Origin: Deltaproteobacteria bacterium
GTDB taxonomy: Bacteria; Desulfobacterota; Desulfarculia; Desulfarculales; Desulfarculaceae
DNA length: 8,246 bases
Reading direction: 5' to 3'
Assembly (NCBI GenBank): GCA_020444165.1
Contig: JAHLLK010000177.1
Coordinates: 1-8,246, forward strand
In this document: positions 3,641 through 8,246 of the stretch, in pieces
Position numbering within the stretch: the stretch's first letter is position 1
How the letters are laid out: every line of letters begins with the position of its first letter
Program-made: the position numbers and the translations under genes
The notes under the pieces: generated by a model
Told to the model about the DNA's origin: nothing
The model's input: only the letters and a program-made list of their open reading frames with translations
The model's database searches: none

Positions 3641-4441
3641 GTGATCGGTTTGCATAAAAAGTTGATAATGATCTCAGTCATCATGCTGCTATTGGCTGCC
3701 TGCCAGACGAACGTGAGTGAGCAGGCTTTGTCCCTGGCGCGTGCTACCGTGGTGGCGGAAATCACCAGCACCAGTGCCGCCCGACCCACACACACCGCCA
3801 CGGCTACAGTAACCGCCACGGTCACAGCCACCGCTACACCACAGCCCACCTACGACCCAAACAGCACGCCCACGCTCACGCCCACACTGGCCTACCCGCA
3901 GGCCACCGTACTGCAGCAGTCCAACTGCCGCTATGGGCCGGGCGCACCCTACCTGTATGAATGGGGGCTGTACCCCGAAGACCGTGTGACGGTGACCGCC
4001 CGCAATGAGCTGAGCACCTGGGTGTACGTGCAGCCGCGCAGCTATTCGGGGTATTGCTGGGTGAAAGCCGAATTGCTGGACATTGATGGCGAGATCGACC
4101 CGCTGCCGCCCTTTTACGGGCGTCTGCCGTACTCCGAGCTGTACAAACCGCCCACCAACCCGCGCGCCACGCGCGAAGGCACCGAGGTATACCTGGTCTG
4201 GGACCCGGTGTGGATGACGGCCGATGACGACCGCGGTTATTTGATCGAAGCCTGGGTATGCAGAGACAACCAACTGGTGTTCAACCCCATCGGCACCACC
4301 ACCTACACCGAGACCAGCATCAGCATCACAGATGAAGCCGGCTGTGCCCAACCTTCCGGCGCCCGCCTGTACACCGCCGAAAAACACGGCTACACCCAAT
4401 GGGTGCAGTTCACCTGGCCGCAAGCCGGCCCGGGCGGATGA
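3641..4441 (+). CDS. Exported lipoprotein with Thr-rich linker, SH3-like domain and beta-rich C-terminal domain
   Basis: The protein has 266 residues. A signal peptide with lipobox LLLAAC places the lipidated Cys at residue 21. A low-complexity linker (about 42-84) has Thr at nearly every second position. Residues about 86-148 resemble a bacterial SH3 domain (an RYGPG turn after NC, then DRVTV and WVYVQP, closing with GYCWV); Cys96 and Cys139 could form a disulfide. The remainder, about 165-260, is beta-rich and reminiscent of a fibronectin type III fold (PPTNPRATREGTEVYLVWDP), with Cys207 and Cys235. The likely role is surface binding of cell-wall or other ligands; no catalytic residues are seen. 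The start is uncertain. GTG at 3641 has AGGA 5 bases upstream. In-frame TTG at 3650 is preceded by AGGTGATC, a close complement of the 16S rRNA 3' end, and would give a tidy MHKK-type signal peptide. No partner gene is evident. Confidence 0.9.
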   Translation: MIGLHKKLIMISVIMLLLAACQTNVSEQALSLARATVVAEITSTSAARPTHTATATVTATVTATATPQPTYDPNSTPTLTPTLAYPQATVLQQSNCRYGPGAPYLYEWGLYPEDRVTVTARNELSTWVYVQPRSYSGYCWVKAELLDIDGEIDPLPPFYGRLPYSELYKPPTNPRATREGTEVYLVWDPVWMTADDDRGYLIEAWVCRDNQLVFNPIGTTTYTETSISITDEAGCAQPSGARLYTAEKHGYTQWVQFTWPQAGPGG

Positions 4442-4544
4442 CCTATATATCTGCTCCCCTAATAGAGACCACCTGAAAGTCATGGTCCATTCAAAGATTC
4501 CTCAATTGAAACCTGCTCCTACACCATCGAAATGATAATAAAAT

Positions 4545-4724
4545 GTCATTCCGAGACCGAAGGTCGAGGAATCCCCAATAGGACAATCCGTAAAGCCTTA
4601 TTTCCAAGCGAAACCAACCCAAAGCAGCGGTACAACATAAGCCTGAAATTATGCATCAGGTGATTTATAAATTACTGCTGAGGGATTCCTCGGTCGAAAG
4701 CTACGCTTGCTCACTCGGAATGAC
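4545..4724. repeat. Inverted-repeat element, copy 2 (MITE-like)
   Basis: The terminal 11-bp inverted repeat is perfect: GTCATTCCGAG at 4545-4555 against CTCGGAATGAC at 4714-4724. A perfect inner 10-bp repeat, GAGGAATCCC at 4566-4575 against GGGATTCCTC at 4682-4691, lies inside it, so a transcript would form a long cruciform-like hairpin. The AT-rich interior shares GGACAAT and AAGCCTGAAA with the copy at 49-206. No ORF lies inside. It starts 103 bases after the lipoprotein stop and could also end that transcript. No clear target-site duplication is visible. Confidence 0.8.
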
Positions 4725-4734
4725 TTTTTATTAT

Positions 4735-4776
4735 CGTTCCGAGATCAAAGGTAGGGGGATATCCAATAGGATCATT
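4735..4776. repeat. Decayed left half of the same inverted-repeat element
   Basis: The stretch beginning CGTTCCGAGATCAAAGGTAG and running on through ATCCAATAGGAT closely follows the left arm of the element at 4545-4587, with scattered substitutions. There is no matching right arm before the next gene. It begins about 10 bases after the complete copy ends, suggesting a nested or tandem insertion followed by deletion. Confidence 0.6.
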
Positions 4777-6198: not shown

Positions 6199-6227
6199 TT
6201 TAGTTTCTACACAAAACCCTCTATAAT
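6199..6227 (+). promoter_or_regulatory. Candidate promoter of the tandem array, overlapping the hairpin
   Basis: A perfect TATAAT lies at 6222-6227, partly in the loop of the hairpin at 6213-6241. The best -35 at 17-base spacing is TTTAGT (6199-6204), only three of six matches. Transcription would start near 6234, giving a very short leader that still carries AGGG before the ATG at 6246 but lacks the left arm of the hairpin. Confidence 0.35.
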
Positions 6228-6241
6228 TGTTAGAGGGTTTT
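6213..6241 (+). terminator. Rho-independent terminator-like hairpin at the end of the oxidoreductase transcript
   Basis: AAAACCCTCTA (6213-6223) pairs perfectly with TAGAGGGTTTT (6231-6241) around a 7-base loop, and the 3' arm ends in a run of five T (6238-6242). It lies about 140 bases after the oxidoreductase stop and only 4 bases before the first array gene. The stem is AT-rich apart from the CCCTC/GAGGG core, so terminator strength is uncertain. Confidence 0.65.
6233..6237 (+). promoter_or_regulatory. Shine-Dalgarno of array gene 1, inside the 3' arm of the hairpin
   Basis: GAGGG lies 8 bases before the ATG at 6246 and is base-paired with CCCTC in any transcript that includes the whole hairpin. 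It is the only recognisable Shine-Dalgarno in the array. Read-through RNA would hide it; RNA starting near 6234 would leave it free. Confidence 0.5.
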
Positions 6242-6245
6242 TCAA

Positions 6246-6587
6246 ATGGGCAAAATTAGGATATTAATAGTAATAATTTTATTGCTTTTCATTCTCCTCC
6301 TGCTGCTGGGCTGGCGCAAGATAGCCGATGTTGTCAAGCCTGAACCCACCAGCACCGCAACAATGACTGCAACACAAACTATCACCAGTACACCCACGCT
6401 AACCAATACTGTTACTGCCACAGCCACCAGCACAGCGACCCACACAGCCACTACGACGCCCACCCCGACCGATACCAGCACCCCTACACCCACACGCACC
6501 TATTTACCCACCTGGACACCGACTAAAGCGGATAAGAATAATGAAGGGAGTAGGGGAGAAGAAAAACCACCCGATATCGAACACTAA
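6246..6587 (+). CDS. Array gene 1: membrane-anchored Thr-alternating stalk protein
   Basis: The protein has 113 residues and no recognised family. An N-terminal hydrophobic helix (about 5-22) follows a short basic head (MGKIR) and ends in GWRKIADVV (22-30). From residue 35 to 85, Thr occupies every odd position without a break (26 Thr in succession). The motif LPTWTPTKA follows (87-95), then a charged, not Gly-rich tail (about 96-113) ending DIEH, unlike the other copies. No lipobox or Ala-X-Ala site is evident, so an uncleaved anchor is likeliest. The stalk is probably outside the cell, by analogy with the exported lipoprotein linker nearby, but positive charges flank both sides of the helix, so topology is not certain. 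It is the only copy with a Shine-Dalgarno. It is almost identical over 178 bases (6298-6475) to array gene 5. Confidence 0.8.
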   Translation: MGKIRILIVIILLLFILLLLLGWRKIADVVKPEPTSTATMTATQTITSTPTLTNTVTATATSTATHTATTTPTPTDTSTPTPTRTYLPTWTPTKADKNNEGSRGEEKPPDIEH

Positions 6588-6591
6588 CAAA

Positions 6592-6945
6592 ATGAAATAT
6601 AACTATGTGATAACTATTTTTTTCCTTTTCATACTCATCCTACTCCTGCTGCTGGGCTGGCGCAAGATAGCCGATGTTGTCATGCTTGAACCCACCAGCA
6701 CGGCAACAATGACTGCAACACAAACAACCACCATTACACCCACGCTAACCAATACGGATACCCCCACAACCACCAGCACGGCAACGCACACTGCTACATC
6801 AACAGCCACGCCCACCGATACCAGCACACCGACATCTACGAACACTTACGTGCCCACCTGGACGCCGACCAAAGCAGACAGGAATGGTGGAGGAAGCGGT
6901 GGTGGTGGTGGATCTGACGATGGTGATGCAGGGGATGAAGGTTAA
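6592..6945 (+). CDS. Array gene 2: membrane-anchored Thr-alternating stalk protein
   Basis: The protein has 117 residues from the ATG at 6592. I chose this start over the in-frame ATG at 6541 because it aligns with the other copies, leaves 4 bases after the gene 1 stop instead of a 47-base overlap, and puts the hydrophobic helix at the N-terminus (about 5-21). The collar is GWRKIADVV. The Thr-X stalk is followed by VPTWTPTKA and a tail with Gly-rich and Asp-rich parts ending DAGDEG. There is no Shine-Dalgarno before the start, so ribosomes finishing gene 1 probably re-initiate. The first half of its tail (RNGGGSGGGGG) is shared with gene 3. Confidence 0.8.
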   Translation: MKYNYVITIFFLFILILLLLLGWRKIADVVMLEPTSTATMTATQTTTITPTLTNTDTPTTTSTATHTATSTATPTDTSTPTSTNTYVPTWTPTKADRNGGGSGGGGGSDDGDAGDEG

Positions 6946-6966
6946 TTAAAACCACTTTACAATGCA

Positions 6967-7308
6967 ATGAATAAAAAGTTTACCTTTTTACTAATCCTCA
7001 TTTTTCTTATTCTCTTTCTGCTGTTTACATTGTGGAAGATGGATGATATTTTCGCGCCCGAACCCACCAGCACCGCAACAATGACTGCAACACAAACTAC
7101 CACCAGTACACCCACACTAACCAATACCGTTACCCCCACAACCACCAGCACAGCCACCACAACACCCACACCGACCGATACCAGCACACCTACACCCACG
7201 AATACCTATTTACCCACCTGGACACCGACCAAAGCTGAAAGGAATGGTGGAGGAAGCGGTGGTGGTGGAGGCGGTGATGAAAAACCAGGTGGTGGAGACG
7301 AAGGATAA
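6967..7308 (+). CDS. Array gene 3: membrane-anchored stalk protein with a divergent collar
   Basis: The protein has 113 residues. A Phe-rich hydrophobic helix (about 5-22) is followed by TLWKMDDIFAPEP instead of the GWRKIADVV-type collar of the other copies, making this the most diverged N-terminal half. Thr then occupies every even position from 34 to 80. Relative to genes 1 and 5 the stalk is four residues shorter, an even number that keeps the Thr register. LPTWTPTKA (82-90) and a long Gly-rich tail ending GGGDEG follow. The gap after gene 2 is 21 bases without a Shine-Dalgarno; TACAAT lies at 6958-6963, too close to the ATG for an ordinary promoter. Confidence 0.8.
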   Translation: MNKKFTFLLILIFLILFLLFTLWKMDDIFAPEPTSTATMTATQTTTSTPTLTNTVTPTTTSTATTTPTPTDTSTPTPTNTYLPTWTPTKAERNGGGSGGGGGGDEKPGGGDEG

Positions 7309-7326
7309 TCTAGTATTATTTTGCCA

Positions 7327-7659
7327 ATGAATAAGCAACTGATCCTCATCCTATCCCTCCTCATACTTCTCCTCTTGCTGCTGCTCGGCTGGCACAGGAT
7401 AGCTGATGTTGTTACGCCTGATCCCACCAGCACGGCTACGATTGCCGTGACCTCCACAGCCACGGAAACCCCCACAGCCACCAGCACCGCGACCTATACC
7501 GCTACCACAACGCCCACGCCCACCGATACCAGCACGCCTACACCCACGAACACGCCCCTACCCACCTGGACGCCGACTAAAGCGGACAAAAATGATAGTG
7601 GAATCGGCGGGGGCGGAGGCCCAAGTGGTGGGGATGGTGACGCCGGCGGCGGTGGATAA
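7327..7659 (+). CDS. Array gene 4: membrane-anchored stalk protein with a broken Thr register
   Basis: The protein has 110 residues from the ATG at 7327; this start gives the MNK-type N-terminus shared by genes 3 and 6. A Leu-rich helix (about 4-20) is followed by GWHRIADVV, a conservative variant of the collar. The stalk differs from the rest in its first half (TATIAVTSTATETPT), where the strict Thr alternation slips once, then rejoins the common sequence. LPTWTPTKA is followed by a Gly-rich tail ending DAGGGG. There is no Shine-Dalgarno. TATTAT at 7314-7319 ends 7 bases before the ATG, a spacing that would suit a leaderless transcript, but AT-rich spacers make this weak evidence. Confidence 0.8.
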   Translation: MNKQLILILSLLILLLLLLLGWHRIADVVTPDPTSTATIAVTSTATETPTATSTATYTATTTPTPTDTSTPTPTNTPLPTWTPTKADKNDSGIGGGGGPSGGDGDAGGGG

Positions 7660-7675
7660 TAAGTTATCATAAGCA

Positions 7676-8041
7676 ATGAATAATAAACTGATCCCGATCC
7701 TATCCCTGCTCATACTCTTCCTGCTGCTGGGCTGGCGCAAGATAGCCGATGTTGTCAAGCCTGAACCCACCAGCACCGCAACAATGACTGCAACACAAAC
7801 TATCACCAGTACACCCACGCTAACCAATACTGTTACTGCCACAGCCACCAGCACAGCGACCCACACGGCCACTACGACGCCCACCCCGACCGATACAAGC
7901 ACGCCAACACCCACGAACACACCCCTGCCCACCTGGACACCGACTAAAGCACCCAGGCATGATAATGACAGCGGTGGTGGAGACAGCGGCCCAGGTGGTG
8001 GAGGGAGTGGCGGCGGCGATGGCGATCCAACAATACCATGA
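7676..8041 (+). CDS. Array gene 5: membrane-anchored stalk protein, near-duplicate of gene 1
   Basis: The protein has 121 residues. A hydrophobic helix (about 5-18) is followed by GWRKIADVV (19-27). Thr occupies every even position from 32 to 82, with a residue-for-residue match to gene 1 in the collar and most of the stalk. The conserved motif is LPTWTPTKA (84-92). The tail is the longest in the array (about 29 residues), Gly/Asp-rich and ending DPTIP, quite unlike that of gene 1. No Shine-Dalgarno is seen in the 16-base gap after gene 4. Its TGA stop overlaps the ATG of gene 6 as ATGA. Confidence 0.8.
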   Translation: MNNKLIPILSLLILFLLLGWRKIADVVKPEPTSTATMTATQTITSTPTLTNTVTATATSTATHTATTTPTPTDTSTPTPTNTPLPTWTPTKAPRHDNDSGGGDSGPGGGGSGGGDGDPTIP

Positions 8042-8246
8042 ATAAGTATCTGATCCTGATCCTATCCGTACTTATACTCCTTCTCCTGCTGCTAGGCTGG
8101 CGCAAGATAGCCGATGTTGTCATGCCCGATCCCACCAGCACCCACACAGCCACAAGTACACCCACGCTAACCAATACCGTTACCCCCACAACCACCAGCA
8201 CAGCGACCCACACGGCCACTACGACGCCCACACCGACCGATACCAG
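8038..8246 (+). CDS. Array gene 6: membrane-anchored stalk protein, 3' end outside the window
   Basis: The ATG at 8038 overlaps the stop of gene 5 (ATGA at 8038-8041), a typical translational-coupling arrangement. The 69 visible codons encode a hydrophobic helix (about 4-19), GWRKIADVV (20-28) and a Thr-alternating stalk that lacks the ATMTATQT block of genes 1, 2, 3 and 5. The reading frame is open to the last base, so the conserved Trp motif and tail are expected beyond the window but not seen. The stalk DNA is a mosaic: 8167-8203 equals part of gene 3 and 8192-8231 equals part of gene 5. Confidence 0.78.
   Translation, partial: MNKYLILILSVLILLLLLLGWRKIADVVMPDPTSTHTATSTPTLTNTVTPTTTSTATHTATTTPTPTDT

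Follow-up and report, generated by a model that had tools for sequence, protein, structure and literature searches.

A tandem array of at least six genes, each encoding a membrane helix and a Thr-alternating stalk, ends the 8,246-nt stretch of DNA analysed here (the window). At positions 6246-8246, six co-directional homologous genes (g1 to g6) stand head-to-tail on the + strand; the helix and the T-x-T stalk are found in all six, and each of the five complete copies adds the motif PTWTPTKA followed by a short tail. The computed part of the picture consists of six constrained tandem genes, products with one helix and no predicted fold, operon-like spacing and a stalk segment that g1 and g5 have exchanged. 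The stalk-only build is already present in databases, and the unusual part is its amplification to six or more copies. As an explanation we tentatively favor a set of tandem-amplified, cargo-free, O-glycosylated stalks that would form a surface glycan brush, with glycosylation, location and expression all presumed, and give this reading somewhat less than an even chance. Bacterial Thr/Pro stretches are usually regarded as passive linkers; a linker that is the whole product, under selection and in at least six copies, would be a candidate surface-glycan scaffold in a largely uncultured phylum.

Genes and proteins of the array

The array opens with g1 (6246..6587), which encodes a stalk protein of 113 residues whose tail is acidic and polar, not Gly-rich, and continues with g2 (6592..6945, 117 residues), g3 (6967..7308, 113 residues), g4 (7327..7659, 110 residues, with a shorter stalk) and g5 (7676..8041, 121 residues), all on the + strand. 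The sixth copy, g6 (8038..8246, + strand), overlaps the last 4 nt of g5, stop codon included, and is readable over 69 residues; the contig end cuts it inside the stalk, ahead of PTWTPTKA, and the contig very likely breaks off within the array. Homology was used to set the starts of g2 and g4 (the mechanical list of open reading frames starts them earlier, at 6541 and 7321).

Successive genes are separated by 4, 21, 18, 16, and -4 nt, so that the next gene begins -4 to 21 nt after each stop and leaves no space for a domain. No Shine-Dalgarno-like site precedes g2 to g6, whose pairing with the anti-Shine-Dalgarno sequence is computed at +1.9 to -2.2 kcal/mol, compared with -6.3 kcal/mol for g1. 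Three other genes in the window reach -9.2 to -11.2 kcal/mol, and weak pairing is also computed for YchF (-4.7), RidA (-1.1 or -3.9) and an SH3-like gene (-0.8 or -4.1), depending on the start chosen. The six genes probably form one translationally coupled operon. The array's only Shine-Dalgarno-like GAGGG lies in the right arm of a perfect 11-bp hairpin (6213..6241, + strand; stems 6213-6223 and 6231-6241) that ends 4 nt 5' of the g1 ATG. This hairpin is absent from the terminator scan list, its z value is -2.14, and 8 of 200 shuffles fold equally well; it is possibly a terminator of the upstream gene or a control element. A promoter candidate (6199-6227, TTTAGT-17-TATAAT) was seen by eye 5' of g1, below the scan threshold, with its -10 box within the hairpin.

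The complete copies (110-121 residues) are composed, in order, of a hydrophobic segment, a short collar, the T-x-T stalk, PTWTPTKA, and a tail of 18-31 residues. The hydrophobic segment spans approximately residues 3-23 in all six copies (mean Kyte-Doolittle value 2.1-3.3 over 19 residues) and is followed in five of them by the collar GW-(R/H)-(K/R)-IADVV, the divergent collar of g3 being LWKMDDIF. Each complete copy contains 26-32 Thr and 7-15 Pro residues. None of the five contains Cys, so a lipid anchor is not expected, and their tails, on reading, have no sortase-type anchor in the form of a C-terminal LPXTG-type motif plus hydrophobic helix. The AlphaFold2 model of g5, built with 12 sequences, shows a single N-terminal helix (residues 5-24), the rest being coil (mean pLDDT 64.6, pTM 0.22), and no Pfam match was obtained for g1 or g5, the two copies scanned. 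Charges flanking the helix (+1 to +3 before, -2 to +1 after) weakly favor an N-in/C-out orientation; the margin is small because two basic residues of the g5 collar and one basic residue of the g1 N-terminal flank fell inside the computed helix window.

The copies evolve as genes. All 15 pairs give dN/dS values of 0.22-0.53 (dS 0.27-1.14), which identifies the array copies as constrained genes, and differences summed over the 15 pairs amount to 272, 213, and 576 at codon positions 1, 2, and 3, respectively. This third-position excess marks the sense frame as the coding one, although V-G-V-type antisense reading frames are also open. At the DNA level the array repeats (283 nt in four copies at 66-100% identity; 107 nt at the same register across the six genes, reaching 98%) are far above chance expectation. 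Comparison of the copies shows the stalk and PTWTPTKA conserved while the tails and membrane parts drift, with tail identity of 40-66% over the terminal windows in most pairs. Copies g1 and g5 share 148 identical nt over membrane segment, collar and stalk (6298-6445 = 7719-7866), flanked by identities of 47% at the start and ~40% in the tail, a pattern that fits a recent exchange between copies; every other pair shares at most 40 identical nt.

These results bear out the sequence-only reading in its central claim of six tandem stalk genes, with the reservation that g6 is truncated by the contig end. Its suggestion that the stalk itself is the product is supported by the purifying selection, the -4 to 21 nt spacing and the one-helix fold prediction. 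The alternative it had named, fragments of a larger protein, can be dismissed, as each gene has its own start, its own stop and a selected frame.

Stalk-only relatives

A single-sequence search of the protein database returned 13 proteins and a profile search at least 429 (best 7996 candidates scored, best 120 listed); sequences were read for all 13 of the former and for a further 44 and six proteins. The array proteins themselves are not among the 13 or the best 120 of the 429, and missed gene calls are one possible reason. Small stalk-only genes appear worth seeking in general, as gene callers may miss them or mask them as low complexity.

Many of the relatives are proteins of 93-146 residues with the same build and other collars (DSQNLGGxFRT, ETNYRGxFRT, and similar), some with a TSP3-like tail. 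The closest in construction are small stalk proteins from Anaerolineae and metagenomes (P0001, P0008, P0014-P0023, P0029, and others; G477, G456, G409), which at ~93-146 residues share with the array the N-terminal helix, the T-x-T stalk, a short Gly/Asn/Asp-rich tail and, in most cases, the absence of a Pfam domain, and whose exit, such as TNTLAPLWTPTKKPK, resembles that of the array. They differ in the collar (DSQNLGGxFRT or similar, against GWRKIADVV), in a tail that often contains Cys, and in being single-copy, in the genomes surveyed, except for a pair in G409. The array follows the DSQNLGGxFRT-type plan of a short N-terminus, one membrane helix, a T-x-T stalk and a length of ~100-125 residues. 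The statement of the sequence-only reading that it knew of no described system with this architecture needs correcting: the build is not unique, with many other stalk-only proteins of ~93-146 residues in databases, and what is unusual is its amplification to six or more copies.

Two further groups resemble the array in part. Stalk proteins that end in a TSP3-like tail (P0046, P0048, P0050, P0074; G413, G460) share its helix, stalk and small size, have the FRTPTPT-type collar of the single-copy stalk proteins above, and differ in an Asp-rich DDDGDGVLNYADNCPQKYAETSNGCPQ tail; the tail of G413 scores 21.5 bits against TSP_3, under the cut-off of 25. The lipoproteins with a CAP domain (PF00188, YkwD-type; P0031-P0033, P0035, P0039) have a T-x-T stalk and a similar exit (TPTNTPYPTRTKAPN...), which leads into the domain where the array gene stops. 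Their signal sequence is followed by a lipobox-like Cys and their C-terminus by definition holds the CAP domain; the array has neither.

What connects the array with these relatives is its architecture together with the stalk exit. A profile of this exit, of the form TNTxxPxxPTKK..., built from 21 relatives scores g5 at 30.9, g2 at 22.4, g3 at 21.9, g4 at 16.4, and g1 at 13.5 bits, with two CAP-domain lipoproteins used as controls (17.4 and 17.2 bits) above g4 and g1 and the next control at 11.4. With the membrane/collar profile the array copies score 5.4-14.6 bits against up to 13.4 for unrelated controls, and only g3 exceeds these; as this part finds no match, common descent of array and relatives is unproven. 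A profile-profile comparison gives 98.9% probability, a value inflated by the repetitive stalk. The stalk with its exit looks like a linker module common to several Chloroflexota proteins, and the array genes would be made up of this module and an anchor only.

Genome surveys and glycan-gene context

In the family that contains the relatives, at least 14 of 152 genomes gave 16 profile matches at 1e-5, scoring being limited to 47 candidates in each genome (three scans, giving 14/150, 14/150, and 14/152 at 1e-5, concern this same family and are not independent). By reading, six of the matches are stalk-only genes in five genomes (G477, G441, G456, G235, and G409 twice), four carry the TSP3-like tail (G413, G460, G464, G468), three have a longer C-terminal part (G282, G502, G474), and three are lipoprotein-like (G425, G225, G474). 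The recurrence of arrays in Chloroflexota genomes, which the sequence-only reading had proposed as a check, was not seen in the genomes surveyed: the relatives there are single-copy except for the one tandem pair in G409 (L078, 8780-9441), whose members have near-identical starts, the second having hardly any stalk and a different tail. A second family yielded no profile match in 52 genomes. Across 396 genomes of the class, the exact back-translated PTWTPTKA was found in none, while profile A5 matched in at least two at 1e-6 (scoring limited to 18 candidates in each genome).

An oxidoreductase of the window (P0126) has named relatives at 62-65% identity that include, among the matches listed, Anaerolineales, Anaerolineae, and Chloroflexi bacteria. 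Among 41 genomes with close oxidoreductases, 14 matched the N-terminal profile A3 at 0.01, mainly through longer proteins, with one stalk-only gene of 94 residues (G235). Twenty regions around related oxidoreductases, searched with a Thr-density filter, contained no stalk-only gene and so provide no synteny for the array. Plasmids and Rfam gave no match. Candidates set aside as non-relatives include four loci of a genome-collection scan (L001 and L004, long proteins with Thr stretches; L002 and L003, stalk open reading frames of 632 and 1092 residues) and 21 loci on viral contigs, where the first three matches per locus were Thr linkers, mostly in long proteins, that do not begin with a membrane helix and collar.

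The gene neighborhoods of three single-copy relatives hint at glycan synthesis and lend indirect support to the surface-glycan idea of the sequence-only reading. The stalk-only genes of G477, G441, and G456 lie 283, 572, and 83 bp, respectively, from one glycosyltransferase-like gene that is present in 129 of the 152 genomes of the family at 1e-60. What this gene does can only be guessed, because its sole NCBIfam match, to the BFO_1060 glycosyltransferases, stops at 51 bits where the cut-off is 200, and Pfam gives nothing at 1e-6. The G477 cluster also encodes a bifunctional PAPS synthase, which at 827 bits exceeds the curated cut-off of 669, a PseF-like cytidylyltransferase (151, below the cut-off of 205.7) and GT2 and PMT-type domains, and the G456 cluster a sulfotransferase; the neighbors in G441 were compared by eye only. 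The longer stalk protein of G282 lies in a similar cluster with a NeuB-like synthase (265, below the cut-off of 399.65), in a genome where the search for the glycosyltransferase-like gene gave no match. The conserved cluster, as seen at L074, L077, L080, and L081, comprises genes for PAPS synthase, nonulosonate-type enzymes and sulfotransferase, with the glycosyltransferase-like gene as its widespread member.

Three of ten stalk genes within 1 kb of the glycosyltransferase-like gene correspond to P ~1e-7 for random placement, and to 3e-5 for placement within 10 kb, values that serve as a lead since this neighbor was chosen after seeing the data. The ten come from genomes with that gene and leave out three lipoprotein-like matches, the G409 pair and G282. 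Counted over all 13 non-lipoprotein-like stalk matches, the adjacency again holds for three, and not for the four with TSP3-like tails or the G409 pair. Conversely, of 30 glycosyltransferase loci drawn from the 129 genomes (G441 and G456 not among them), only that of G477 has a stalk-only gene within ~1.5 kb, so that the two are not obligate partners. The window itself contains no glycan genes. In two genomes, TSP3-tail stalk genes (L075, 9208-9549; L082, 5533-5919) adjoin one and the same gene, which by eye resembles methionine synthase.

Possible roles of the array

According to the glycan-brush reading, the membrane helix would anchor an unfolded Thr/Pro rod outside the cell, given export and the N-in/C-out topology, and the copies would be produced together from one operon. 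O-linked glycans would most likely sit on the stalk Thr residues, as composition and the gene context of the relatives suggest, and the rods together would form the brush. Tandem duplication would raise the dose and provides copies that vary in length and tail. Both Thr/Pro stalks and mucin-like proteins are familiar, and eukaryotic mucin-type membrane glycoproteins, a multigene family, have a membrane-tethered unfolded Thr/Pro-rich stalk as their main product. They offer a parallel in the way of working, with no kinship claimed: the array proteins share the unfolded Thr/Pro-rich rod, by composition and as coil in the model, but are bacterial, ~110 residues long and only putatively glycosylated. 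The titles and abstract openings of the open-access literature searched gave no account of an operon with six copies of a cargo-free stalk in bacteria. A bolder version, a bacterial membrane mucin on a Chloroflexota cell, we consider unlikely. In it, the tandem-amplified cargo-free stalks of the coupled operon would be densely coated with O-glycans of nonulosonate type and sulfated O-glycans, and the number of copies and the length of the stalks would set how thick the coat is.

The rods might instead remain unglycosylated and act as spacers or tethers. They would then space the wall, span it, or bind partner proteins by way of the Trp motif or the Gly/Asp tail. We regard this as doubtful: PTWTPTKA, short as it is, is invariant in the five complete copies, and the same exit stretch connects stalk to domain in the CAP lipoproteins, but the tails differ strongly between copies, unlike a binding site, and no partner was found. 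That exit likeness would also suit an origin from stalk lipoproteins, for instance those with a CAP domain, that no longer carry cargo. Such derivatives would serve regulation or competition by occupying export or modification machinery or by diluting cargo-bearing stalks. A CAP-lipoprotein exit profile from 17 proteins places g5, g4, g2, g3, and g1 at ranks 1, 3, 11, 14, and 21 among 160 distinct sequences. The CAP N-terminal profile, however, gives the array copies -4.0 to 3.7 bits (ranks 104-182 of 188), the lipobox Cys is missing and the window has no CAP gene, and we judge such an origin to be improbable.

The remaining alternatives concern whether the copies matter at all. Transient duplicates of little function, maintained by recombination, would agree with the single copy usual in the relatives seen and with the recent g1/g5 exchange, yet dN/dS of 0.22-0.53 and dS of up to 1.14 describe old copies that are all open, which makes this reading quite unlikely. 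A repeat misassembly that multiplied one or two genes is suggested by the contig end inside the repeat and by the 148-nt identity, a long run of a kind that may break an assembly. The remaining pairs, with their short shared runs and many silent differences, and the independent tandem pair of a similar gene in G409 speak against it, and we consider such an artefact very improbable.

Upstream of the array, the window contains a lipoprotein-like gene (3641-4441) with a T-x-T stalk of its own followed by a C-terminal region that is SH3-like by eye; its product has no match in Pfam or the PDB. Beyond this gene lies an inverted repeat (4527-4742) with 29-nt arms 158 nt apart and 90% complementary, to which a stretch at ~40-215 (23 nt, 87%) is related; the two look like copies of a dispersed mobile-type repeat.
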